From assembly GCF_019599295.1 (NCBI RefSeq), contig NZ_JAIEWN010000036.1, positions 8,504 to 51,416 on the forward strand: DNA of 42,913 nucleotides, written 5' to 3'. Below are positions 17 to 40,064 of the stretch, in pieces. This DNA comes from Oscillochloris sp. ZM17-4. GTDB lineage: Bacteria > Chloroflexota > Chloroflexia > Chloroflexales > Chloroflexaceae. The stretch's first letter is position 1. Each line of letters starts with the position of its first letter. Below the pieces are notes generated by a model that was not told the DNA's origin, made no database searches, and worked only from the letters and a program-made list of their open reading frames with translations. The translations under genes were made by a program, and so were the position numbers.

Positions 17-49
17 GCAATCTGCAATCCAAAATCTGCAATCTGAAAT
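17..49. repeat. Heptamer repeat arm (GCAATCT type)
   Basis: Short tandem copies of a seven-base unit of the GCAATCT type with small variations. The same unit recurs at about 28185-28255 and 38298-38371. Only one arm is visible; a partner arm could lie before the window start. Confidence 0.6.
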
Positions 50-303: not shown

Positions 304-2199
304 ATGCCTAAGAATATCTACGCCCTGATAACCCAGATGAGGAGCAACGTGCTGCGAATTGGACGAGCGATAAGCCACCAACGGCGAACCCTTGAGGGTC
401 GCAGGCTATCGGCTATCGGCTATCGGCTATCGGCTATCATCGTGGTTCTGCTCCTGCTGGCCGGGGCGGCCCCGGCCACCCCGGCCCGCGCGCTCGCCCC
501 GCTAGCGCCGGCCGCTGTGCCGGCCAGCCCGCCCTCCTTCGGCCTGAACAGCCACCTGGCCAGCCGCTACCCCGACCCCTCCTCGATGGATGTGCCGGCG
601 AGCATGCTGACCGACCTGGGCGTGACCTGGGTGCGCGAGGACTTCCACTGGCACCGGGTGGAGCCGCGCCCCGACGCCTGGGACTGGACCTTCACCGACG
701 CGGCGATGCGGGCAATCCTCAGCCGCGACATCCAGGTGCTCGGCGTGCTCGGCCCGTCGGTGGGATGGGGCACCCCCTACCCCGGCGACACGCCCAACGA
801 TGTCTCCTACTACCCGCCCGACCCCGACGCCTTCGACGCCTATGTGCGCGCCGTCGTCACCCGCTACCGCCGCTACATCCACCACTGGGAGATCTGGAAC
901 GAGCCGGACCACGGCGTCTTCTGGCGGCCTCAGCCCGACGTGGCGGCCTACACCCGCCTGCTCATCCGCACGGCGGCGACGATCCGCGCGATCGACCCGC
1001 AGGCCCAGGTGGTGCTCGGCGGAATCAACCCCTTCGACACGACCTTCCTGCGCGGCGTGGCCGAGAACGGCGGCTGGGGCAGCTTCGACGTGCTCGGCAT
1101 CCACCCCTACGTGGACCCCTACGGCCCCGAGGACGGCAACCTGATCGCCGCCGCCGACGGCGTGCGCGCCCTGGCCGAGCGCTACGGCAAGCGGCCGATC
1201 TGGGTCACCGAGCTGGGCTGGTCCAGCGGGCCGGGCGACCGCGACAGGGCCGGCCTCACCGATGAGCAGGCCCAGGCCAGCTACCTGGTGCGCTCGATGC
1301 TCGACCTCTGGCAGGCCGGCGTCGAGCGGATCTTCTGGTACAGCTTTAAGGACGACCCTGGCAACCCCTACGGCCTGGTGCGCGCCGGCGCCGGACGGAC
1401 AGACTACCGCTCGCGCAAGCCGGCCTACGACGCCCTGCGCACGCTCAACCAGCAGCTCGCCGGGGCCACCTTCGTCGAGCGGCGCGACCTGTTCACCCGC
1501 GACACCCTGGTCAGCTTCGACAGCCTGCGCGGCTGGCGGCGCACCAGCCAGCCCAACGGCACCCTGCGCCTCAGCGACGCCCAGGCGCACGGCGGCGGGC
1601 TCAGCGCGCAGCTCGACTACAGCTTCACCACGCGCCAGAACGACTACGTCTCCTTCGAGCGCGAGCAGCCCATCCCGCTGCCCGGCCAGCCCTACGCCCT
1701 CGGCGTCTGGGTCTACGGCGACGGCAGCACCCACGGGGTGAAGGTCTGGCTGCGCGACGCCGAGGGCGAGCTGCTGCAGTACGTGCTGGGCAGCGTGGGG
1801 CCGCCGGGCTGGCACTTCATCTCCGCGCCGATCGGCGGGACGGTGGAGCCGGGCAACCACCTGGAGGGCAGGGGCAACAGCCGGCTCGACTTCCCGGCCA
1901 GCCTGCAGGCGGTCGTGCTCGACGATATGGTGGACAGCTTTGTGGGCGGGGGGACGATCTACCTGGACGACCTGAGCGTGATCGGGGGGCACGAGATCTA
2001 CGACCTGCGGCTCCAGCGCGGCGGCGAGTCGCTCGATGTGCTCTGGTCGCCGCCGGGCGCGCGGGTACACCTGAGCACGCGATCGGCGGCGGGCCGCCTG
2101 ATCACACGCGATGGCGTGGAGAGCACGGCGTCGGCCCAGGGCGGGCAGATCACCGTGAACCTCGGCCCGGCCCCGGTCTACCTCATCCACCGGCGATGA
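304..2199 (+). CDS. Secreted clan GH-A-type glycoside hydrolase with C-terminal carbohydrate-binding-like domain
   Basis: A 631-residue protein. Residues about 45-65 form a hydrophobic export signal ending in Ala/Pro-rich sequence, so it is probably secreted or membrane-anchored. A TIM-barrel of the GH5/GH39/GH42 kind follows: HWEIWNEPDH carries the expected acid/base Glu (E200) and PIWVTELGWSS the expected nucleophile Glu (E303). Residues about 390-560 resemble a beta-sandwich carbohydrate-binding module (LYLDD-type ending), followed by a short C-terminal beta domain. The substrate cannot be read from sequence; a polysaccharide glycosidase is the safe call. No good Shine-Dalgarno precedes the ATG, and a Met at residue 12 is an alternative start. 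A five-copy 7-base repeat (404-438) encodes a repeated RLSAIGY segment just before the hydrophobic signal. Confidence 0.8.
   Translation: MPKNIYALITQMRSNVLRIGRAISHQRRTLEGRRLSAIGYRLSAIIVVLLLLAGAAPATPARALAPLAPAAVPASPPSFGLNSHLASRYPDPSSMDVPASMLTDLGVTWVREDFHWHRVEPRPDAWDWTFTDAAMRAILSRDIQVLGVLGPSVGWGTPYPGDTPNDVSYYPPDPDAFDAYVRAVVTRYRRYIHHWEIWNEPDHGVFWRPQPDVAAYTRLLIRTAATIRAIDPQAQVVLGGINPFDTTFLRGVAENGGWGSFDVLGIHPYVDPYGPEDGNLIAAADGVRALAERYGKRPIWVTELGWSSGPGDRDRAGLTDEQAQASYLVRSMLDLWQAGVERIFWYSFKDDPGNPYGLVRAGAGRTDYRSRKPAYDALRTLNQQLAGATFVERRDLFTRDTLVSFDSLRGWRRTSQPNGTLRLSDAQAHGGGLSAQLDYSFTTRQNDYVSFEREQPIPLPGQPYALGVWVYGDGSTHGVKVWLRDAEGELLQYVLGSVGPPGWHFISAPIGGTVEPGNHLEGRGNSRLDFPASLQAVVLDDMVDSFVGGGTIYLDDLSVIGGHEIYDLRLQRGGESLDVLWSPPGARVHLSTRSAAGRLITRDGVESTASAQGGQITVNLGPAPVYLIHRR
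404..438 (+). repeat. Five tandem GGCTATC heptamers inside a coding region
   Basis: Five perfect head-to-tail copies of GGCTATC, at 404, 411, 418, 425 and 432. Because three units make 21 bases, the translation repeats every seven residues (RLSAIGY). No inverted partner array is present nearby, unlike several other heptamer sites in this window. Confidence 0.9.
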
Positions 2200-6267: not shown

Positions 6268-6801
6268 ATGGAGCTGACCGAGACGCGCGCCGACGGGCTG
6301 GGCACCAGCGCGGCGCGCAAGGCCCGCATGCACGTCGCCCGCTTGCCGGGGCCGCACAACGCGCTGTGGTACTGGCCGCAGCTCGCCGGCGGCTACCTGC
6401 GGGTGATCCGTAATGGATTGCTGATCCAGGTGGCCCGCTACACGCCCTTCCTCGCGCTCAAGGGTGCGATCTATCGCCTGCTGGGGGCGAAGGTCGGCCG
6501 CCACACCAGCGTCGGCCTGATGGTCATGCTCGACGTCTTCTTCCCCCAGGACGTGACGATCGGCGACGAGTGCGTGGTCGGCTACAACACGACGATCCTC
6601 TGCCACGATGTGACCCGCGGCGAGTGGCGGCGCGGCCCGGTGCTGATCGGCGACAATGTCACCATCGGGGCGAACTGCACCATCCTGCCCGGCGTGATGA
6701 TCGGCGACGGGGCCACCGTCTCGGCCATGAGCCTAGTCAACCGCGACGTGCCCGCCGGGGCCTTCGTGGGCGGGGTGCCGATACAGCGCCTGCGGCGCTG
6801 A
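6268..6801 (+). CDS. Left-handed beta-helix (hexapeptide-repeat) acyltransferase
   Basis: A 177-residue protein. Residues about 65-170 show hexapeptide-repeat periodicity (VGRHTSVG, VTIGDECVVG, VLIGDNVTIGANCTI, VMIGDGATVSAMSLV), the signature of trimeric LbH acyltransferases, and it ends FVGGVPIQRLRR, typical of the family. The N-terminal 60 residues contain an aromatic helix (NALWYWPQ). Acetyl-CoA transfer to a sugar or antibiotic-like hydroxyl is likely, but the acceptor is unknown. The start at 6268 has AGGAAG four bases upstream; an upstream in-frame ATG at 6226 is less likely. Confidence 0.82.
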   Translation: MELTETRADGLGTSAARKARMHVARLPGPHNALWYWPQLAGGYLRVIRNGLLIQVARYTPFLALKGAIYRLLGAKVGRHTSVGLMVMLDVFFPQDVTIGDECVVGYNTTILCHDVTRGEWRRGPVLIGDNVTIGANCTILPGVMIGDGATVSAMSLVNRDVPAGAFVGGVPIQRLRR

Positions 6802-6805
6802 TCTC

Positions 6806-6871
6806 AATGTTGAATGTTGAATGTTGAATGCTGAATTGAGCACCACCATTCAACATTCAACATTCAACATT
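6806..6871. repeat. Inverted heptamer array (TTGAATG / ATTCAAC)
   Basis: Starting five bases after the acyltransferase stop, units of TTGAATG run to about 6830. After 17 bases the exact reverse complement (ATTCAAC units) runs 6848-6871. The arms pair perfectly over 24 bp. The element ends just before the GGAGG ribosome-binding site of the next gene at 6884, so it fills the gap between two co-directional genes. Confidence 0.92.
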
Positions 6872-10820: not shown

Positions 10821-11531
10821 CTACGCCCCGTCCCGCAGCCGGCCGGCGCGCACCAGCTCGTTGAGCATATCCACCTGCACCTCCTGGATGCTGGCCAGGC
10901 GCTGCCACTGCTGGTTCATGAGGTGGTCGAGCTTCTCCTGCATCTGGCGGATCTCCAGCTCGGCCTTCAGGTTCACCTGGTAGTCGTGGCTTGCCCGCAG
11001 GCGGTCCTTCTCCTCCTGGCGGTTCTGGCTCATCATAATGATCGGCGCCTGCATGGCGGCCACGCAGGAGAGCACCAGGTTGAGCAGGATGAAGGGGTAG
11101 GGGTCGAAGAAGCGGGTGAGCAGGCTGTTGGCCCCGATCCAGACAATGATGATCGCGCCAAAGATGCTGATGAAGCTCCAGCTGCCGCCGAAGGCGGCGA
11201 TCCGGTCGGAGAGACGGTCGCCGAAGCTGAGCTGCTGCGCGAAGGTCTCGTTGGTGTCCTCGGCGATCAGGTCGCCATCGCTAATGCTGGCGACGACCTC
11301 CCGCTCCAGCTCGCTGAGGTCACCGCCCTCATCGGCGACCAGCTGCGCGACATAGTCGGCGCGGGCGGCGGCCAGGTCCTCGGCGCAGATGTAGCCGCCC
11401 TCGTCCCAGGCGGGGCGGCCGGCGCGCAGCCGGCGCAGCAGCTCCTCGCGTACCGCCCCGGCCGGCACCACCTCGGCGAGGCGCTTCTCCTTACCACAGG
11501 CCTGGCAGCGCACACGATCATCGCTCTCCAT
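10821..11531 (-). CDS. DUF1003 family membrane protein
   Basis: A 236-residue protein. A short N-terminal cysteine cluster (CQAC and a later C in GGYICAEDL) precedes a DUF1003 core: FGDRLSDRIAAFGGSWSF, a transmembrane helix about 116-136, YPFILLNLVLSCVAAMQAP in a second helix, then MMSQNRQEEKDR and a long charged helix (about 170-230) that is probably a coiled coil. DUF1003 proteins are two-helix inner-membrane proteins of unknown function. The start has AGGAGG six bases upstream. It is divergent from the PAS-STAS gene. Confidence 0.88.
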   Translation of the reverse strand: MESDDRVRCQACGKEKRLAEVVPAGAVREELLRRLRAGRPAWDEGGYICAEDLAAARADYVAQLVADEGGDLSELEREVVASISDGDLIAEDTNETFAQQLSFGDRLSDRIAAFGGSWSFISIFGAIIIVWIGANSLLTRFFDPYPFILLNLVLSCVAAMQAPIIMMSQNRQEEKDRLRASHDYQVNLKAELEIRQMQEKLDHLMNQQWQRLASIQEVQVDMLNELVRAGRLRDGA

Positions 11532-11735
11532 CAGCGGCCTCCTGAACAGTGCTCTATGTTAGGTGTCGATTCTGGATCCTACCACAGCTCACGTGTCTGG
11601 CTCAAGCCTTCCCGCCACGCCGCACCCCAGCCTCAAGACAACCTCGTATATATTGGTGTGTATACTATATGCGCAGAGTGCGGCGGTGATCTGATGCTCG
11701 CGCCAGTACCCACATAGCAGTGAGAGGTATGGAGT
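11532..11735. other. Divergent intergenic region
   Basis: About 200 bases between the DUF1003 (-) and PAS-STAS (+) genes. It must hold both promoters. An AT-rich block near 11646-11670 contains TATACT (11661-11666), a possible -10 for the plus-strand gene, but no convincing -35 is at the right distance. Confidence 0.35.
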
Positions 11736-20020: not shown

Positions 20021-20440
20021 TTATTCGTAGCGCCGGCCGCTCGGCTTATCGGCGGCGTAGGAGCGGATGGTGTAGCGGATCTGGCGGTCGCCCGTCTCCT
20101 GGCGCTCCAGGTGGAAGCCGGGCTCGTCGGCGGGGCGCTGGACGATAAACTGGAGCGCGGTGGTGGCCCGACCAAGCGAGCGGTCGTAGCCCGAGATGCG
20201 GACGTAGTAGTTGGGGAAGGTGGCCTTGCACTCGGCCAGGGTCTGCATGATCGCCACCGGATCCTTGATGTCGAACATCGGCAGGCCGTACATGTCCCAG
20301 TAGCTGTTCCGCGGGTGCGGGTCGTCGGTGTACTCGATGGCGATCGGCCAGTCGTTATCCAGGCAGTACTGGATCTGGGCCTTGATCTGGTCGTCGTCGA
20401 AGTCGGGCAGGTAGGAGAAGGTCCCCTGAGTGATTCGCAT
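20021..20440 (-). CDS. rbcS: Rubisco small subunit (red-type form I)
   Basis: A 139-residue protein starting [19 protein letters not shown], the usual opening of red-type small subunits, with [13 protein letters not shown] and the C-terminal extension (about 105-139) that forms the extra beta-hairpin in this class. AGGAA stands five bases before the ATG at 20440; a longer start at 20476 would be inside the heptamer repeat and is rejected. It assembles with RbcL as L8S8. It follows rbcL, separated only by the inverted heptamer array. Confidence 0.95.
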
Positions 20441-20455
20441 GTCGCTTCCTTTCAG

Positions 20456-20518
20456 AAGGCAAAAGGCAAAAGGCAAAAGGTAAAGACCTCAGCGCCCTTT
20501 TACCTTTTACCTTTTACC
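20456..20518. repeat. Inverted heptamer array between rbcL and rbcS
   Basis: On the plus strand, units of AAAAGGC (20456-20484) face units of TTTTACC (20495-20518). In the transcript (minus strand) the arms pair over about three units, with G-U wobbles where C and T differ, around a loop of about 10 bases. The array begins within a few bases of the rbcL stop and ends shortly before the rbcS ribosome-binding site. A hairpin here could stabilise the rbcL part of the message. Confidence 0.9.
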
Positions 20519-20522
20519 GTGA

Positions 20523-22019
<1,497 letters not shown>

Positions 22020-22666: not shown

Positions 22667-22880
22667 GGTTTAGGGGCGGACAGAACATATGAGCAATGGG
22701 CGATTCATGGCATTGGAGCGGGCTATTGGCCCTCACCCCCCCAACCCCCTCTCCCAGCAGGGGAGAGGGGGAGCCGGACAGCATTCCAATGCAGAATCCT
22801 GCCGCCTGCCGCCTGCCGCCTGTCCGTCCCTAAAGGGTGTAGGGGGCGGGGAGGCCAGGCCACACACCAGCATCGCCGGT
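22667..22880. repeat. Hairpin element and heptamer repeat between acetyltransferase and kinase genes
   Basis: CCCCCTCTCCC (22745-22755) pairs with GGGAGAGGGGG after AGCAG. An imperfect outer inverted repeat (GCATTGGA near 22710 and TCCAATGC near 22785) frames it, so the whole looks like a small MITE-like or palindromic element. GCCGCCT follows in three tandem copies (22801-22821). I see no gene. Confidence 0.6.
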
Positions 22881-22913: not shown

Positions 22914-24209
22914 ATGACAGCCCCCACCCATACACAGACACCCGACCCCGCCCCAGACAGCGAGGTGGAGGCCCTGCGCCGCCGCGTGGAGGGCCTGGAG
23001 CGGGTCAACAGCATGCTGAAGACCGAGCACATCCAGCTTGAGCGGATCAGCCGGGTCTTCCACGTCACCCACGCCCTCGCCGTGGCCATGCAGTCGGCCA
23101 GCGACATCTCCGAGGTCCACGAGCGCGTGCTGACCCTGATCACCGCCGAGCTGGGCTACGAGCGCGCGGTGCTGGCCGTGGTCGAGACGCACGACATGGT
23201 GCTGACCGGGTGGCTGTGCAGCACCAGCGGGCCGGGGGGCCACGTTCAGCGCATGCCCCACACCGCCCGCCTGCCCCTCGACGATGAGAGCTGGCCGCTG
23301 GTGGCGTCGCTGCGCAGCGGCACGCCCCTGCTGGTGGCCGACGGCAGGTCGCCCACCGGCGATGTGCAGGCGAACGCGCTGCTCGGCCTGTGCGGCTACG
23401 TCGTGCTGCCGATGGTGCTGCTCGGCCAGCCCCTCGGCGTCCTGATCGTGGACAACCCGCTGGGCGGGCGGGCGCTCACCGCCGCCGACCGCGACCTGCT
23501 CCAGCACGTGGCCAACCACACCGCCGTGATGATCGGCGGCATCCAGACGGTGGTCAGCCGGGCGCAGCGCCTCGCGATCGAGGAGGAGCGCGCGCGGATC
23601 GCCCTGGAGATCCACGACGCGATCTCGCAGCAGCTCTACGGGATCACCTACACGATCGGCGCGTGCGCCCGCCAGCTCCCCGCCAACCCCGAGTCCGTGC
23701 GCGAGCAGCTGCTCTACCTGCTGCCCCAGGCCCAGCACGCCGCCCAGGGGCTGCGCCGCGCGATCTTCGACCTCTGGCCCGACGACCTCGACGCCGCGCG
23801 CTTCAAGGAGGAGCTGTCCGCCTACCTAGAGGAGATCGCCGCGCCGCCCCGGCCGCTGCTCTTCCTCCAGGTCGACGCCGTCTTCGACATGCTGCCCGCC
23901 CTGACGCGCCGGCAGCTCTACCGCATCGCCCAGGAGGCATTGAACAACGCGGCCAAGCACGCCGCCGCCCGCCAGGCCAAGCTCACCCTGCTGAGCCAGG
24001 GCGCCGAGGTGGTGATGCGCATCGCCGACAACGGCCGGGGCTTCGACCTGGCCGGCATCCTGCACGGGAGCAACGCCCGGGGGCACTACGGGTTCACCAG
24101 CATGCGCGAGCGCGCCGAGACGATCGGCGGCCAGCTGCGCATCGACAGCGCGCCCGACGAGGGCACCACGCTCACCGTGATGATCCCCTTCCGCATCCGC
24201 GATGCCTGA
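22914..24209 (+). CDS. GAF-containing NarL-type sensor histidine kinase
   Basis: A 431-residue cytoplasmic kinase: N-terminal coiled coil (about 15-45), GAF domain (about 60-215), HisKA_3 dimerisation domain with H234 (ARIALEIHDAISQQLYG) and a HATPase domain (QEALNNAAKHA, DNGRGFD, GHYGFTSMRERA). There are no transmembrane segments, so it senses an internal or diffusible signal through GAF. The LuxR-type response regulator follows 59 bases later and is its likely partner. Translation is expected to begin at the 5' end of the message. Confidence 0.94.
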   Translation: MTAPTHTQTPDPAPDSEVEALRRRVEGLERVNSMLKTEHIQLERISRVFHVTHALAVAMQSASDISEVHERVLTLITAELGYERAVLAVVETHDMVLTGWLCSTSGPGGHVQRMPHTARLPLDDESWPLVASLRSGTPLLVADGRSPTGDVQANALLGLCGYVVLPMVLLGQPLGVLIVDNPLGGRALTAADRDLLQHVANHTAVMIGGIQTVVSRAQRLAIEEERARIALEIHDAISQQLYGITYTIGACARQLPANPESVREQLLYLLPQAQHAAQGLRRAIFDLWPDDLDAARFKEELSAYLEEIAAPPRPLLFLQVDAVFDMLPALTRRQLYRIAQEALNNAAKHAAARQAKLTLLSQGAEVVMRIADNGRGFDLAGILHGSNARGHYGFTSMRERAETIGGQLRIDSAPDEGTTLTVMIPFRIRDA

Positions 24210-26022: not shown

Positions 26023-26393
26023 TGTCTCTCGCTGCTTTCTACTGTCGGTCTGCCGATGAATTGACGACGAACGACGAGCGACCAATGACAGAGCAGGGCG
26101 TCGTTCGTCGCTGTCTAGAAAAGAATACGAGGAGCCGAGCGCTCAGCCGCGCGAGTCGCGCCCCACAAGCTCCGCCACCGCAATAAGCAGGACGGTGCGG
26201 TCATAGAGGCCTCAGGCGAGCGGTCGACATCCGAGAGCGCCGGATCGCACAAGCAACCGCATATTCATCACACAGCTTCGGCGGCTATAATGATACACGA
26301 ATGCCGCCGGGTTGACAATCGCCCACAGTGTGGCCAGCGCCGCCACGAGGCGCGGCGGTAGGCCGCGCATGTGTCTACATGAGGTGACAACCT
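26023..26393. other. Divergent gap with GACGAAC-type repeats
   Basis: Seven-base periodic sequence (GACGAAC, GACGAGC, GACCAAT, GACAGAG) runs from about 26064 and is met by an inverted arm; CGACGAACGAC (26065-26075) pairs exactly with 26100-26110. Further on, TATAAT at 26286-26291 and an isolated TTGACA at 26312 could belong to a promoter for the NtrC-type gene, but neither has a good partner box. No gene is seen. Confidence 0.5.
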
Positions 26394-28184: not shown

Positions 28185-28255
28185 GATTGCAGATTGTAGA
28201 TTGCAGATTGCAGATTAGCTGCCAATCTGCAATCTGCAATCTACAATCTGCAATC
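28185..28255. repeat. 32-bp perfect inverted heptamer array (GATTGCA / TGCAATC)
   Basis: Arms 28185-28216 and 28224-28255 are exact reverse complements over 32 bases, with a seven-base loop. Each arm is about four and a half heptamer units. One unit is a variant (GATTGTA against TACAATC), and the variant occurs at the mirrored position in both arms. It begins at the stop codon of the HerA-like fragment and lies upstream of csbD. Confidence 0.95.
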
Positions 28256-29072
28256 AGAGCGGCCGGAAGCAGTGCGGGTTGGCCCGCATCAGGTCGTCGC
28301 TGCTGCGGAAGCCCTGGAGCACGAGGGGCGTGCCGAGCGAGCCGAGGGCCACGATCGGGCCGGTGACCATGAAGGTGTAGCGTCCGGTGCGCTTCGGGTC
28401 GGGCAGCGAGCAGTAGCGCGCGAAGCCCTCGCGGCCCAGCTCCGACTCGACGAACTCGCGGTCGGCGCCGAGCTTGAAGCCCTGGCCGAAGACCTTCACC
28501 TGCAGCTGGCGCAGGATGGTCTTGTCGAAGTCGTGCAGCGTCTGGGTGATGAAGAGCCAGCCGACGCCGTACTTGCCGGTCATGCGCACGCTCTGGGCGA
28601 GCAGGGTGCGCGTGCGCGCGCCGTCGGCGCTCTCGCTGGCGTGCTCGCCGGCGAAGAGGTGGGCCTCGTCGAGCACCACCAGCGCGTTGCTCTGCTGGCC
28701 GCCGTGGAAGCTGCGGTGGATGACCTGGCGCAGCCGGGTCAGGATCTCGTTGAGCAGGAAGTAGGGCACCGCGTCGTGGGCGCCCTCCTGCGAGAAGGAG
28801 AGCACCACGATCTCGCGGTCGGCCAGCACGCGCTGGATGATCTGCGAGAGCGGGGTGCGCCCGCTGTCGGTGCGGAAGGCCGTCAGCGACTCGGCCCAGA
28901 TCCGCTTCAGGCGGGCCTCATCGAGCTGGTAGCGGGCCAGCACATCCTGGGCCCGCTGGCCCTCGCCGGGCGTCGTGCCGGGGCGGCTGGCGTAGATCAC
29001 ATCGGCGAAGCGGGCCAGGTCCTTCACCAGCAGCGGCAGGTCGGCCCCGCGCAGATCAGCCGCCGGTGTCAT
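28254..29072 (-). pseudogene. C-terminal part of a HerA-like/DUF87 ATPase
   Basis: A 272-residue frame that reads as the second half of a HerA/FtsK-superfamily ATPase. Walker B is present (NALVVLDEAHLFAGEH), with the following ARTRTLLAQSVRMTGKYGVGWLFITQTLHDFD strand and sensor region. Walker A and the N-terminal HAS-barrel are absent, and the frame starts inside the truncated end of the VanW gene. It is probably a 5'-deleted gene; a residual short product is possible from the ATG at 29072, but ATP binding would be missing. Confidence 0.7.
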
Positions 29073-30603: not shown

Positions 30604-30919
30604 GGTACCGTGCGTCGCTTTCCTAAAGGGTGAACGATGAGCGGAGTGTACACCACAGCCCGCACATCGTCAAGAGTTATGTGGCAAAACTCAGGGCATG
30701 AGCAACGTCGCTGGCGGCTGAAGCCGCGTCGCGGAGGCCTGCGGCCGACCGCCCACCTTCGTGGGCGGATCCGGCGTCGGCCTGCGACGACGCCCGGAGC
30801 AACGCTCCCCGCCGGCGCGACTTCAGTTGCCAGCCGGATTCGGCCCTTCTGAAACCTTGTCTAACAAATAATGCGGGGGCGGCTTCGCCGCCCCGCACCC
30901 CCACCGGGAGGTGACATCG
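30604..30919. repeat. Intergenic region with inverted-repeat element
   Basis: An element of about 125 bp (30710-30834) is bounded by imperfect inverted repeats (GCTGGCGGCTGAAG near 30710 and CTTCAGTTGCCAGC ending 30834) and holds smaller palindromes such as CCGCCCAC-CTTC-GTGGGCGG. A second hairpin at 30876-30894 (GGGGCGGC-TTC-GCCGCCCC) follows. I see a MITE-like remnant and no gene. Confidence 0.55.
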
Positions 30920-32431: not shown

Positions 32432-32472
32432 GGACGTGTAGGGATGCAGCGCGCTGCGTCCCTACACGTCCC
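32431..32472. terminator. 20-bp bidirectional hairpin between convergent genes
   Basis: Arms 32431-32450 and 32453-32472 match at 19 of 20 positions around GC. The structure fits exactly between the stop codons of the ATL (+) and Uma2 (-) genes, with no T-run. It contains the dispersed GCAGCGCGCTGC palindrome. Confidence 0.7.
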
Positions 32473-33374
32473 TACGCGTCCGGGCTTTCCCCGAGATGAC
32501 GGAGTCGCTCGCCCAGACGCTCGGCGCGCGCGCGCTCATCCTCGGCCTGCCGCTGCGCCGCCTCGGCCTGCCGCTGCGCCGCCTCGGCCTGCCGCTGCGC
32601 CACCTCGGCCTGCCGCTGCGCCACCACAATCTCCCGATCCACCGCCTCGGCCCGTCGCTGCGCCGCCTCGGCCTGCTGGAGCGCCTGCTGCATGCGCTGG
32701 ATCGCCGTGGACGCCTGCCGCTCGGCCGCCTCGGCGCGCTGCTGGGCCGCCTCGGCCCACTGCTGGGCCGCATCGGCCTTCTTGGCGAGCCCGTCGCGCC
32801 CAAGCAGTACATCTTCGTAGGTTGGCAGACGCCGCCCATTTGGCCGGTAGATCTCCAGCTCCTCTACGCCGATCACAAAGCGCAGCCCGAGGCGCGGACT
32901 CACCCAGCCATCGATCTGCACAATCTCTAGCAGCTCGTCGCCCGTGCGCAGCCAGCCCTCAAGCTCGTTGGCCTCCGGGTCGTACAGATAGTACTCCTCG
33001 ACCCCGTACTCCTCGTAGAAGCGGAACTTGCGCACCATCTCGCGGTGGCGGTTCCCCGGCGAGAGTACCTCGAAGACGACCTGCGGTGCCACGCCCGCCT
33101 CAAGCCACTGCATGTACGAGCCGCGGTCGCCCTTGGGCCGGCCAAAGGCCACCAGCGCGTCGGGGGCGACGCGGATGTCGGGTCGGCCCTCGACCGGGTA
33201 CCAGAGCAGGTTGCCAGCCACGAACACATCGTCCTGGTCGGCGAAGATCGCCTCCAGCCCACCGGCGATCGTGACGATCCAGCGGAACTGGCGCGTGTTC
33301 TCGGCGATCGGCTGGCCATCGCTCTCGGGGTAGAGTATATACAGCGGCTTCCCGCGCTTGATGCCGGCGCTCAT
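32472..33374 (-). CDS. Uma2 family nuclease-like protein with heptad coiled-coil tail
   Basis: A 300-residue protein. The N-terminal 190 residues are a Uma2 (DUF820) PD-(D/E)xK fold, with RPDIRVAPDALVAFG and VVFEVLSPGNR carrying the expected acidic residues, then FYEEYGVEEYYLYDP. The remainder (about 205-300) is a long Ala/Gln/Glu coiled coil that includes near-perfect repeats of AQRQAEA, encoded by a 21-base tandem repeat (about 32540-32640). Uma2 proteins are abundant in cyanobacteria and Chloroflexota, with unclear function. GGGAGGT supports the ATG at 33374. Confidence 0.9.
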   Translation of the reverse strand: MSAGIKRGKPLYILYPESDGQPIAENTRQFRWIVTIAGGLEAIFADQDDVFVAGNLLWYPVEGRPDIRVAPDALVAFGRPKGDRGSYMQWLEAGVAPQVVFEVLSPGNRHREMVRKFRFYEEYGVEEYYLYDPEANELEGWLRTGDELLEIVQIDGWVSPRLGLRFVIGVEELEIYRPNGRRLPTYEDVLLGRDGLAKKADAAQQWAEAAQQRAEAAERQASTAIQRMQQALQQAEAAQRRAEAVDREIVVAQRQAEVAQRQAEAAQRQAEAAQRQAEDERARAERLGERLRHLGESPDA

Positions 33375-35087: not shown

Positions 35088-35529
35088 TGCTCACCTCATA
35101 CATGCGCCAGATGTCGCGCTGGAAAAGCTCGGCCCACAGCCTACAAGCAGAGTCCGCCACGGCGAGCCAGACGCGGCGTGGAGGCACGGTGCGAAGCACG
35201 GGGAGTTGTGTGTAGCCGATTATACCGACCCGCCCGAGGTTTGTCTATCCGGGCCGCGCGCCCGACAGTGCCGGCTGGCCGCGGGCCTTGTCGCGAGGAC
35301 GCCTCCCCGCCGTTATGTTGCCAGCAGCAACACCGTGTACGGTGAGGGCGTGGGAGAGCTTCGCTCCCCCACAAAAAAACTGATGGTGCTGCGGCGCGGC
35401 TACGCCGCGCCGCAGCACCATCAGTGTATCATGTGCCTGATGGGCACACGCCGTTATGGGAGAGTGTTAGGATTGGCCGCGAGGGCAGTCGCGCTACGCC
35501 GCACATCGACACTCGCCCACCAAGGTGCC
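35088..35529. repeat. Intergenic region with compound hairpin element, copy 2
   Basis: The 3' part has a small hairpin (GAGC-TTC-GCTC near 35357) and a 22-bp perfect hairpin (35379-35400 with 35404-35425, TAC loop). It shares its core and layout with 24953-25044, but its outer nine base pairs differ and are complementary within the copy. The preceding 250 bases show no gene. The MBL (-) and acyltransferase (+) genes diverge from here. Confidence 0.75.
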
Positions 35530-36688: not shown

Positions 36689-38293
36689 GTGGAATACCAG
36701 CCAAACGTAAAACATATCACGGGCGAGGGCGGCCTGATCAGCGCCGTCCGGCCCGATAGCATCGCCGCCGAGCTTGGCCTCCAGCCCGGCGACATGATCG
36801 TGTCCGTGGGAAGCCAGCGCCTGCGCGACGTGATCGACTACCGCTTCACCATCGCCGATGAGCGCATCGAGGTGCTGGTGCGCTCGGCCGCCGGCGTCGA
36901 GTCGATCTACGAGATCGAGAAGGACCCCGACGAGGATCTGGGAGTCGACTTCGACGAGCCGCTCTTCGACCGGCTGCGCACCTGCAACAACAAGTGCCCC
37001 TTCTGCTTCCTCACCCAGATGCCGAAGGGCTTCCGCAAGACGCTCTACCTCAAGGACGACGACTACCGCCTGTCCTTCATCTACAACAACTTTGTCACCT
37101 TCACCAACCTGACCGAGGACGACTGGCGGCGCATCGAGGAGCAGCATCTCTCGCCGATGAACATCAGCGTCCACGCCACCGACCCGGCCTGGCGCGCGGT
37201 GATGCTCGGCAAGCGCGATGTGCCCGATGTGCGCGATCAGATCCGCCGCCTCGGCAGCATGGGCATCGCCGTCCACACCCAGATCGTGGCCTGCCCCGGC
37301 GTCAACGACGGCGACGTGCTGCGCCAGAGCATCGAGGATATGGCCGCGCTCTACCCGATCGTCCAGTCGATCGCGGTGGTGCCCGTCGGCCTGACCAAGT
37401 ACCGCTTCGAGGGCAAGGCGCCCAAGTCCATCCGCGCCGCCATCGAGGTCCACGAGACGCCCGAGTGGATCGACACGAACTGGGAGCGGCAGCCTCTCTG
37501 GGAGGAGGCAGGAGGCAGGAAGCAGGAGGAAGAGAAGCGCAGTGCCTCGGGGCAACCGATGATCCTGCTGAGCAACGCACCGGATCCTGCCTCCAGCCAC
37601 CTGCCTCCTGCCTCCGCGCCCCTCCACGACCCGGCCCTGGGCTTCTGCTCGCGGCTGGGCGCGGCCACCGACGTGCCGCTGCGCTGCTACACCGGCGCGG
37701 AGGCCACCGAGGTGCTCGACCTGATCCTCGGCTACAGCCAGCGCTACCAGCGTGAGCACGGGCTGACCCTGGTCTACCCCAGCGATGAGTTCTACATCCT
37801 GGCAGGCCGCGAGACGCCCGCGGCCGACTTCTACGACGATATGCCGCAGTACTCCAACGGCATCGGCATGGTGCGCGACTTCCTGGACGGGTGGGCGAAG
37901 GCCAAGCGGCGCCTGCCGGCGCGCATCCCCCACCCCGCCAGCGTCGCCCTCGTCTGCGGCACCCTCGTCGGCCCGATGATGGAGCAGGTCGCCGCCCGGC
38001 TGAACACGATCGAGGGGCTGAGCGTCCAGGTGCTGCCGGTGGTCAACCAGTTCTTCGGCGAGACGGTGACGGTCAGCGGGCTTCTCACCGCGCAAGATGT
38101 CATCCCGGCCCTGCGGGCGAGCGGCTGCACGCGCGCCATCCTGCCCCGGGTGATGTTCGATTACCAGGGCGCGCGCACGATCGACGAGCAGAGCCCGCAG
38201 CAGATCGCCGAGGCCGCCGGCGTGCCGGTGGCCCTGGCCGGCGACCCGGCCGAGCTCGCGCGCTACGTGCGCGCCCTGGCCCAGGCCCGGTGA
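36689..38293 (+). CDS. PDZ-radical SAM DUF512 protein with repeat-derived insert
   Basis: A 534-residue protein with a GTG start. Residues 1-65 form a PDZ-like domain (ISAVRPDSIAAELGLQPGDMI). A radical-SAM-like domain with C99, C103 and C106 (CNNKCPFCF) follows, with NISVHATDPAWRAVMLGKR and CPGVNDGDVLRQSI, then the DUF512 domain (about 330-480, SDEFYILAG, YSNGIGMVRDF). Function of the family is unknown; it is common in clostridia and Chloroflexota. Residues about 270-310 (EEAGGRKQEEEKRS to SSHLPPASAPLHDP) are low complexity and coincide with an inverted heptamer array (37504-37615), apparently inserted in frame. Confidence 0.88.
   Translation: MEYQPNVKHITGEGGLISAVRPDSIAAELGLQPGDMIVSVGSQRLRDVIDYRFTIADERIEVLVRSAAGVESIYEIEKDPDEDLGVDFDEPLFDRLRTCNNKCPFCFLTQMPKGFRKTLYLKDDDYRLSFIYNNFVTFTNLTEDDWRRIEEQHLSPMNISVHATDPAWRAVMLGKRDVPDVRDQIRRLGSMGIAVHTQIVACPGVNDGDVLRQSIEDMAALYPIVQSIAVVPVGLTKYRFEGKAPKSIRAAIEVHETPEWIDTNWERQPLWEEAGGRKQEEEKRSASGQPMILLSNAPDPASSHLPPASAPLHDPALGFCSRLGAATDVPLRCYTGAEATEVLDLILGYSQRYQREHGLTLVYPSDEFYILAGRETPAADFYDDMPQYSNGIGMVRDFLDGWAKAKRRLPARIPHPASVALVCGTLVGPMMEQVAARLNTIEGLSVQVLPVVNQFFGETVTVSGLLTAQDVIPALRASGCTRAILPRVMFDYQGARTIDEQSPQQIAEAAGVPVALAGDPAELARYVRALAQAR
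37504..37615. repeat. Inverted heptamer array inside the DUF512 gene
   Basis: GGAGGCA-type units run from 37504 to about 37531 and TGCCTCC-type units from 37586 to 37615. The outer 15 bases (37504-37518 and 37601-37615) are perfect reverse complements. The architecture is that of the intergenic elements, but here it is translated in frame. Confidence 0.85.
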
Positions 38294-38297
38294 TGCA

Positions 38298-38371
38298 ATT
38301 GCAGATTGCAGATTGAGAGCGGCGATGAAGAACAGATCAATCTACAATCTGCAATCGAGCGATCTGCAATC
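38298..38371. repeat. Inverted heptamer array (GATTGCA type)
   Basis: Arms 38298-38316 and 38337-38355 match at 18 of 19 positions, followed by a further half-unit near 38361-38371. It starts five bases after the DUF512 stop and precedes the ribosome-binding site of the next gene. The unit is the same as at 28185-28255 and 17-49. Confidence 0.88.
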
Positions 38372-38387
38372 CGACGAGGGGGCACCT

Positions 38388-40064
38388 ATGACTGTCCAGC
38401 AGACCCGGCTCCAGCAGTATGTCGAGGTCATCCAGCAGGCAAACCAGATCGCAGCCAGCACGGAGCTCGACGCCCTGCTCGATAAGATGCTCGGCCTGAT
38501 CATCAGCGTCACCCAGGCCGAGGCGGGAACGCTCTACCTCTACGACGCGGCGACCCACGAGCTGGAGTTTAAGGTGGTGCACGGCAGCGCCGAGAGCGGG
38601 CGGCTGGTCGGGTCGCGCATCAGCGCCGACCGCGGCGTGGCGGGCCAGGCCCTGCGCAGCGCCGGCCCCCTCTTCATCGAAGATGTCGCCAGCGACCCGC
38701 GCTGGGACCGGGCGACCGGCGAGCTGGCCGGCTTGCGCCTGCGCACGATGTACTGCGTCCCGCTCATCCTGCGCGGCCAGCCGGTAGGTGTCGTCCAGGT
38801 CTTCAACCTGCCCATGGACACCTGCGACGACGCCGACGAGCTGGCGCTGATCGAACTGCTCTGCTCGCGGCTGGTGACGGAGGTGGAGAAGACCCGCCTG
38901 CTTGAGGAGTCCCAGCGGCGCGCCAAGCGCCAGCAGGCCCTGGTCGAGATCATCTCAAACCTGACGACCACGCTGGACAGCGACACGCTCCTGAACCGGA
39001 TCATGACCCACGCCTGCGAGCTGCTGGGCGTGGAGGCGACCTCGATCTGGCTGCGCGACGCGCAGAGCGGCGACCTGGTGCTGCACCTGGCCACCGGCGA
39101 GATGCGCGAGCACATGCACGCCAGCCGCGTGCCCAGCGGCCACGGCATTATCGGCCACGTGGTCGACACTGGCGAGACGGTGGTGGTGAACGATGTCACC
39201 AAGGATGATCGCTTCTACCGCAACATCGACGCCCAGAGCGGATTTCAGACCCGGGCCATCCTCTGCGTGCCGATGCGCGCGCCGAAGATTATCCTCAGTG
39301 GCGAGCGCGGCGAGGTGGAGGAGCAGGTGATCGGCGGCGCACAGGCGCTCAACCCCTTCAGCAAGCGCGCCTTCTCGCAGGATGACATCAGCCTGTTCGA
39401 GTCGCTGGCCAGCCAGGCCGCCACGGTCATCCGGCTGGCCAGGCTCTACGAGGAGACGGACAAGCTCTTCACGCGGATCATCGACGCGATCACCGGCGCG
39501 ATCGACCTAAAGGACCCCTACACGCGCGGCCACAGCCAGCGGGTGAGCGACTTCTCGGTGGCGATCGCCCAGGAGCTCGGGCTGCCAAGCCAGGATGTCT
39601 ACCGGGTGCGCATCTCCAGCAAGCTCCACGACGTGGGCAAGATCCGCGTGCCCGACCGCATCCTCAAGAAGCGCAAGGGGCTCACCGAGGCCGAGTTCCG
39701 CCAGATGCGCCAGCACCCCACCTACGGCCTGGAGTTCCTGCGCGAGAACGGCCTGCTCGACCTGGAGCTGCTTGAGAACTCGTGGCAGGCGCTCTCGCAG
39801 CACCACGAGCGGCTCGATGGCCGCGGCTACCCCGCCGGAATCAAGGGCGATGAGATCACGATCTTCGGCCGGATCGTCGCGGTCGCCGATGTGTTCGACG
39901 CGATCACGAGCCACCGCCCCTACCGCCCGGCCCGCACCGCCGAGCAGGCGATCACGATCCTGCGCTCGGCCGCCGGGACGGAGTTCGACCCGGGGTGCGT
40001 CGAGGCGCTGGTGCGCGCCCGCGAGTGTGGGCATATCAAGACCCAGGACGAGCGGGCCGGGTAG
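38388..40064 (+). CDS. GAF-GAF-HD-GYP cyclic-di-GMP phosphodiesterase-type protein
   Basis: A 558-residue cytoplasmic protein: GAF 1 (about 20-165), connecting helix, GAF 2 (about 185-365), signalling helix and HD-GYP domain (about 370-555). The HD-GYP part shows RGHSQRVSDFS, KLHDVGKIRVPD, HPTYGLEFL, QHHERLDGRGYP and VADVFDAITSHRPYR, all metal and signature residues intact. By family it hydrolyses cyclic di-GMP, controlled by ligands of the GAF domains. The ATG at 38388 has GAGGGGG upstream; an earlier ATG would translate through the heptamer repeats. Confidence 0.95.
   Translation: MTVQQTRLQQYVEVIQQANQIAASTELDALLDKMLGLIISVTQAEAGTLYLYDAATHELEFKVVHGSAESGRLVGSRISADRGVAGQALRSAGPLFIEDVASDPRWDRATGELAGLRLRTMYCVPLILRGQPVGVVQVFNLPMDTCDDADELALIELLCSRLVTEVEKTRLLEESQRRAKRQQALVEIISNLTTTLDSDTLLNRIMTHACELLGVEATSIWLRDAQSGDLVLHLATGEMREHMHASRVPSGHGIIGHVVDTGETVVVNDVTKDDRFYRNIDAQSGFQTRAILCVPMRAPKIILSGERGEVEEQVIGGAQALNPFSKRAFSQDDISLFESLASQAATVIRLARLYEETDKLFTRIIDAITGAIDLKDPYTRGHSQRVSDFSVAIAQELGLPSQDVYRVRISSKLHDVGKIRVPDRILKKRKGLTEAEFRQMRQHPTYGLEFLRENGLLDLELLENSWQALSQHHERLDGRGYPAGIKGDEITIFGRIVAVADVFDAITSHRPYRPARTAEQAITILRSAAGTEFDPGCVEALVRARECGHIKTQDERAG

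Follow-up and report, generated by a model that had tools for sequence, protein, structure and literature searches.

At several places in the window, the 42,913-nucleotide stretch that was analysed as a whole (G000:C113:8504-51416), tandem heptamers are followed by an array of their reverse complement, and the heptamer changes from place to place under a constant period and architecture. What makes such elements, and what keeps them in place? Bacterial heptamer repeats have long been noted, and we know of no accepted mechanism or function for them. The preliminary description of this DNA pointed to heptamers known from cyanobacteria; the host here is a member of the Chloroflexota and not a cyanobacterium. 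Array statistics were obtained from stretches amounting to 823 kb of the host genome G000 (12% of 6.69 Mb, which is divided among 182 contigs; the window plus 780 kb) and 383 kb of the congener G005 (Chloroflexales bacterium ZM16-3), which is syntenic with G000 at an identity of mostly 80-98%. An exact tandem run was defined as at least 12 matches at lag k, and a paired element as two inverted arrays no more than 160 bp apart. Genes were called with a purpose-written codon-model script, and the window genes that were tested are backed by Pfam matches.

Heptamer arrays in the window

All sites of the preliminary description, its single-arm versions included, are present with coordinates that differ by a few bases (Table 1). 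The first inverted array (6804-6871) fills a gap bounded on one side by the stop codon of gene 6268-6801, which is hexapeptide-transferase-like, and on the other by the SD of a DUF1405 gene (6884); its G005 counterpart is composed of TGAGTGY units. The array at 28185-28257 runs into the stop codon of a minus-strand gene (28254-29072); its arms are exactly mirrored, by chance, and G005 has an AGCCGAT array at the corresponding site. The array at 37500-37615 lies within a predicted radical SAM/DUF512 ORF, where G005 has a GGGAGTC array that is longer by 75 bp, a multiple of 3. As RNA, the inverted arrays fold more stably than shuffled sequences, the one at 26064-26110 being the weakest case.

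Table 1. Inverted and single heptamer arrays of the window, with the RuBisCO genes as context; z is RNA folding stability relative to shuffled sequences.
Feature	Position	Strand	z	Remarks
Single degenerate array, unit GCAATCT	17-49	+		
Single array, (GGCTATC)5	404-441	+		pyrimidine-rich on coding strand, abuts predicted start at 442
Inverted array, unit TGAATGY	6804-6871		-9.6	left arm 6804-6836, right arm 6844-6871
RuBisCO small subunit gene	20021-20440	-		context
Inverted array, unit AAAAGGY	20453-20520		-5.7	rbcL-rbcS spacer
RuBisCO large subunit gene	20523-21968	-		context
Single array, CCTGCCG	22798-22824	+		5' of histidine kinase gene 22914-24209
Short inverted array, unit ACGACGA	26064-26110		-2.7	divergent gap between asparaginase (-) and sigma54 activator (+)
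Inverted array, unit AGATTGY	28185-28257		-13.2	34-bp stem as folded
Inverted array, unit AGGAGGC	37500-37615		-4.6	inside predicted ORF 36689-38293, between radical SAM and DUF512 domains
Degenerate inverted array, AGATTGY	38294-38371		-4.0	fills gap between gene 36689-38293 and gene 38388-40064

The window also holds repeats of other kinds. A dispersed repeat of ~145 bp (30692-30836) has dozens of copies in G005 with 83-90% identity, and a second, of ~137 bp (35313-35449), has many copies in G003 and G005. A 52-bp tandem repeat of 4.5 copies (2529-2763) carries GGGGGCGCGCAGCCCCC-like palindromes, and an imperfect 21-bp tandem repeat of 11 copies (32540-32779), which lies inside a minus-strand gene (32472-33374), is probably a repetitive protein segment. 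Elsewhere in G000, the spacer of an AGCCGAT element (~11389-11563 of the stretch C1:220001-240000) contains the palindrome CCCTGAGCGAAGCGAAGGGTCCCGGTCGGGATTCTTCGC..., which belongs to a dispersed repeat that G005 carries in many copies.

Period, units and placement of the arrays

Comparison of period seven with its neighbours, as proposed in the preliminary description, upheld its enrichment. The 823 kb of G000 contain 179 exact tandem runs at k=7, compared with 9 at k=6, 12 at k=8 and 13 at k=9, and a second-order Markov simulation gave 0 runs at k=7. With mismatches allowed, 249 period-7 arrays were found in the 823 kb, which extrapolates to ~2,000 in the genome. The arrays are thus heptanucleotide SSRs (STRR/long SSR), with a period far above chance and a location mostly outside predicted genes. 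Assembly artefact is a very unlikely source, because congeners that were assembled separately have arrays of this architecture at the orthologous positions.

The sequence had been described as changing from site to site. The unit does vary, but not freely, as it is limited to ~20 recurrent families. Those with most arrays in the 823 kb are AGATTGY (56), TGAATGY (48), AGGGGAY and AGGGTAY together (40), GGGGGTT (15), TGAGTGY (10), AAGGATG (8), AGCCGAY (7) and GTGATGC (6), and the smaller families include AGGAGGC, AAAAGGY and AGGCGGC. Several families alternate between C and T at a single fixed position of the unit, and some arrays switch unit midway with the 7-nt phase unbroken. The unit GGGAGTC is frequent in G005 and has no array in the 823 kb of G000. 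Drift in place is seen where a GGGGGTT array of G000 corresponds to mixed GGGGGTT, GGGAGTT and GGGAGTC units at the orthologous G005 site. A stretch of another genome (G007:C327, 11137-16577) is extremely dense in heptamer arrays, with 17 in 20 kb and abrupt in-phase unit switches, for example from TGCGTAC to ACGTGAA.

Hundreds of gene gaps are filled by a heptamer-array hairpin that reaches from the upstream stop codon nearly to the next start. Counted over gaps of at least 60 bp, the density of paired arrays per kb of gap is 0.80 where the genes are in tandem, 0.83 where they converge and 0.28 where they diverge. In the tandem case, the array starts between -19 and +8 nt from the upstream stop codon in 40 of 45 cases (median -2 nt), and the stop codon often belongs to the first unit (TAA-TGTTGAATG, TAG-GGGACAGGGG). 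The median distance from the array end to the next start is ~11 nt, and about three quarters of these distances do not exceed 28 nt.

A purine/G-rich array runs inward from each gene edge. On the coding strand, arrays near a stop codon are purine-rich in 120 cases and pyrimidine-rich in 18, and those near a start codon are purine-rich in 7 and pyrimidine-rich in 105. The 823 kb of G000 comprise 76 paired and 97 single elements; the purine/G-rich arm, assigned by unit, leads in 74 of the 76 pairs, and it comes first in every one of the measurable stems found independently in G000 and G005 (116:0). Since the two commonest units, AGATTGY and TGAATGY, contain just four purines in seven, this polarity is better read as an order of units. 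A genome-wide pattern search returned 308 matches with AGATTGY first and two overlapping matches, representing one site, in the reverse order, and the corresponding counts in five relatives are 95, 41, 35, 6 and 5 versus 0. The polarity is also found in divergent-gap pairs (9 of 9), and unpaired single arrays obey the same edge rule in tandem (38:4) and divergent gaps (19:3); it therefore exceeds what a pure hairpin-function model requires. Ordinary intergenic hairpins of G000 share it (142:37), and hairpins within coding sequence do not (25:34). The most frequent arm length is ~4 units in the AGATTGY, TGAATGY and G-rich families alike, and inter-arm distances are spread modulo 7, with no fixed phase between the arms.

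Complementarity of the arms is held at the level of the unit, without sign of base-level RNA selection. In two tests whose power is limited because the arrays are so uniform, swapping of right arms within a family revealed no arm-arm covariation past the unit family (stem scores for true versus swapped partners of 25.0 vs 24.6, p=0.11; 23.9 vs 23.7, p=0.26; 21.3 vs 22.6, p=0.83), and mismatches counted in coding-strand orientation gave no indication of RNA-level selection through wobble pairs (43 G-U vs 40 C-A). The idea that one arm is a fold-back copy of its partner was rejected, as true partners have no excess similarity. Loss of hairpin or mismatch repair genes was likewise rejected as a cause, since all 25 genomes have SbcD and MutS whether they carry arrays or not.

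Replacement at orthologous sites and distribution across bacteria

The site and the architecture of these elements outlive their sequence, and the unit is replaced within the genus. For 28 paired G000 elements with both flanks aligned, the G005 counterpart keeps the unit at 12 sites and is another inverted heptamer array at 7 and another hairpin at 5; the remaining 4 have none by a strict stem cut, although two of these (C1:178664 and window 20453) show an imperfect G005 stem by eye. At C1:31751, AGGGGAC in G000 is replaced by AGATTGC in G005 with no intermediate visible between the two, and at C1:233562 TGAATGY corresponds to TGAGGGC/TGAAGGC. Single arrays are also swapped in place for another unit (C1:32881 and C1:378490). 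In six congeners, the rbcL-rbcS gap (window 20441-20522) contains no fewer than four stems that are unrelated to one another, made of AAAAGGY in G000, AAAATGC in G001, GGGGCGAAGCATCGCC in G002 and a GGGAGGG-type unit in G003, G004 and, imperfectly, G005.

Co-presence of hairpins was assessed in mapped gaps of 40-250 bp, tandem or convergent, whose sequence is unrelated between G000 and G005. Of these gaps, 31 have a hairpin in both species, 16 and 4 have one in a single species, and 9 lack it in both (odds ratio 4.4, p=0.03 by Fisher's test). This is moderate evidence that a stem is conserved at a site independently of its sequence, although co-presence could alternatively come from sites that are prone to acquiring stems. 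As relatives carry hairpins at the same spot, often of another heptamer, some factor maintains the shape and the position of these elements even as their sequence turns over.

Within the Chloroflexota, inverted heptamer patterns are patchy and not general. Among 400 genomes of the phylum the inverted AGATTGY pattern is found in 9 and the TGAATGY pattern in 5, compared with 0 for the one scrambled unit that served as control. Matches to AGATTGY arrays range from 0 to 1,141 among 40 relatives and from 0 to 723 within one genus, and in short samples a period-7 excess with other units was seen in G007 and in G026, which belongs to another family. Across GTDB, the inverted AGATTGY pattern occurs in at least 78 stretches and at least nine phyla. 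Among the matches listed are Chloroflexota, Planctomycetota, Armatimonadota, Hydrogenedentes and Acidobacteria, as well as Methylomirabilota, Peregrinibacteria, Deltaproteobacteria/Syntrophobacterales (as filed) and the cyanobacterium Microseira wollei, and individual phylum assignments may be wrong because most carriers are metagenome bins. Several of these elements likewise bridge the gap from stop to start. One Planctomycetales MAG has several AGTGGCC inverted arrays beside AGATTGC, pointing to a multi-unit repertoire outside the Chloroflexota.

Origin and role of the arrays

Each rule described here has a partial precedent in Xanthomonas, Nostoc trnL or Chloroflexus, the closest being the Xanthomonas/Nostoc heptamers and the P6b stem of Nostoc trnL. 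The GGGAATC / GGGGA(C/T)T heptamers of Xanthomonas and Nostoc form convergent pairs (70-75 per Xanthomonas genome), mostly of four units, that are rare between divergent genes, have the coding strand G-rich at stops and the non-coding strand G-rich ahead of starts, and differ in length and sequence between close species (PMC4692102). The present arrays resemble them in period, convergent pairing and strand rule. However, a single G4-linked unit type is found there, whereas one genome here has ~20 units and orthologous sites differ in unit. G-quadruplex formation, proposed for the Xanthomonas and Nostoc heptamers (PMC4692102), would suit the G-rich families AGGGGAY, GGGGGTT and GGGAGTC. Yet the two commonest units, which have no G-tracts, agree with these families in their four-unit mode, their polarity and their placement; since the rules hold for such units, a quadruplex is not the general cause. 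Phase variation fares no better, with one array located between rbcL and rbcS and not at a surface gene, and we consider elements of either kind very improbable.

In the Nostoc trnL group I intron, the P6b stem is built from heptamers of class I (TDNGATT) or class II (NNTGAGT), one class per genotype, and the two classes repeatedly replace each other in situ (PMC4476775). This is comparable to the 7 of 28 mapped sites with an exchanged heptamer array. That case concerns one intron locus, whereas many gene gaps and many units are involved here, and the intron setting is absent from the window, in which no tRNA and no match to a known RNA family (Rfam) was found. The TAACTGA repeats of Beggiatoaceae are abundant intergenic heptamers with a patchy phylogenetic distribution (PMC4679880), and differ in being direct repeats with one indirect repeat, in having a single unit and in standing mostly just 5' of start codons. 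In the same order as the host, Chloroflexus aurantiacus has (GATAGRA)n heptamer arrays, reported as a satellite family (PMC6749651); the part of that report available to us describes neither inverted architecture nor placement in gaps.

The preliminary description offered either a mechanism that makes the arrays or selection on hairpin shape rather than on sequence. Both halves gain support and neither is proved. A making mechanism is favoured by the strong enrichment of period 7 only, by the presence of few units at dozens of loci with unrelated loops, and by an arm polarity that is the same in every gene context. Selection on shape or site is favoured by replacement of the unit at orthologous gaps while an inverted array or another stem stays, and the swap and mismatch tests speak against fine selection on pairing. 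The best explanation, to which we give tentative and somewhat less than even credence, is that these are gene-gap hairpins made from heptamer arrays through slippage in 7-nt steps, confinement to gaps and a weakly useful stem. Replication slippage, a proposal for heptamers that PMC4679880 and PMC4692102 attribute to Mrazek, would grow, shrink and homogenise the arrays in 7-nt steps, and purifying selection would keep them between coding sequences. A stem at a gene end or between cistrons, as at rbcL-rbcS, may be weakly useful in mRNA 3' protection, processing or attenuation, and any stem, heptameric or not, may therefore take over the slot. The period and the drift in place fit such slippage, the confinement to gaps fits purifying selection, and a modest function in RNA or DNA agrees with the finding that a stem persists whatever its sequence, most notably between rbcL and rbcS. 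Slippage alone does not give distant loci a common unit, and this explanation leaves unaccounted for both the near-absolute polarity and the reappearance of the same units across many loci and beyond the phylum.

A purely mutational origin, in which polymerase slippage with a 7-nt preference creates arrays everywhere, selection does no more than clear them from coding regions and the hairpins are functionless, is unlikely. It agrees with the lack of base-level covariation and of a G-U excess, with the surplus of single arrays over pairs (97 vs 76), and with the view of Mrazek, as quoted in PMC4679880, that the long repeats of many bacteria are most often heptamers and that a 7-nt polymerase contact may be involved. 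Neither the inverted pairing nor the polarity of 116:0 is predicted by it, nor is the giving way of one inverted array to another stem at the same spot. We also think it unlikely that the elements are bidirectional terminators, in which a purine-rich 5' arm and a pyrimidine-rich 3' arm would form a weak RNA-DNA hybrid in both directions and thereby explain the polarity. The scarcity in divergent gaps, the location at stop codons and the polarity shared with other intergenic stems are as expected of terminators. However, stems in tandem gaps end ~11 nt before the next start and so leave no room for a promoter, one stem occupies the rbcL-rbcS spacer, the polarity is no different in divergent-gap pairs, and no consistent T-tract was seen on inspection by eye of the flanks 3' of the stems.

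REP/BIME palindromes are many-copy hairpins of intercistronic and 3' regions. A transposase acting on mobile hairpins of the REP/MITE kind could copy whole inverted elements into gaps, where they would replace or join earlier ones, and this would account for few unit families at many loci, for species-specific abundance such as that of GGGAGTC, and for the AGATTGY element in at least nine phyla. Unlike REP/BIME, the present elements have no common sequence past the unit. Their loops are not shared between loci (7 locus pairs have a common 9-mer, compared with 6.1 in shuffles), target duplication is absent at the two inverted-array sites that lack the array in the other genome, and the Y1 transposase (PF01797) has 0 matches in G000, which is 98.6% complete. 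Transposition of whole elements was rejected on these grounds, the missing duplication and unshared spacers also setting the elements apart from MITEs, and we regard mobile hairpins as improbable. There is a similarly slim chance that a putative enzyme uses one heptamer as a template throughout the genome and appends copies of it to each edge of a gap. Arms with the same unit and no base-level mirroring, unrelated loops, single arrays replaced in place (C1:32881 and C1:378490) and the edge polarity of single arrays would all follow, but no candidate enzyme was found, and the in-place drift of units through point changes, which is also seen, is explained by slippage. More broadly, the recurrence of units without shared loops, the polarity in every context and replacement without intermediates leave room for a writing process, which would transfer the unit and leave behind its order, its loop and its flanks. 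That a dedicated and widespread process writes genome-specific heptamer arrays into gaps, with the purine-rich strand leading from the gene edge, and overwrites older hairpins is, in our estimate, rather unlikely.

A search of the open-access literature, which was not exhaustive, did not find the combination of many units sharing a single architecture within one genome, exchange of units at numerous orthologous gaps and an element common to several phyla. G000 and its congeners provide many natural replacements with conserved flanks, and these separate the traits that are kept, namely position, stem, polarity and period, from the sequence, which is not. In Xanthomonas the placement and polarity rules have been ascribed to G-quadruplexes; here they are followed by units that lack G-tracts, and another cause is therefore needed. 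The AGATTGY unit and its architecture, present in at least nine phyla, point to a wider bacterial feature that needs explanation.
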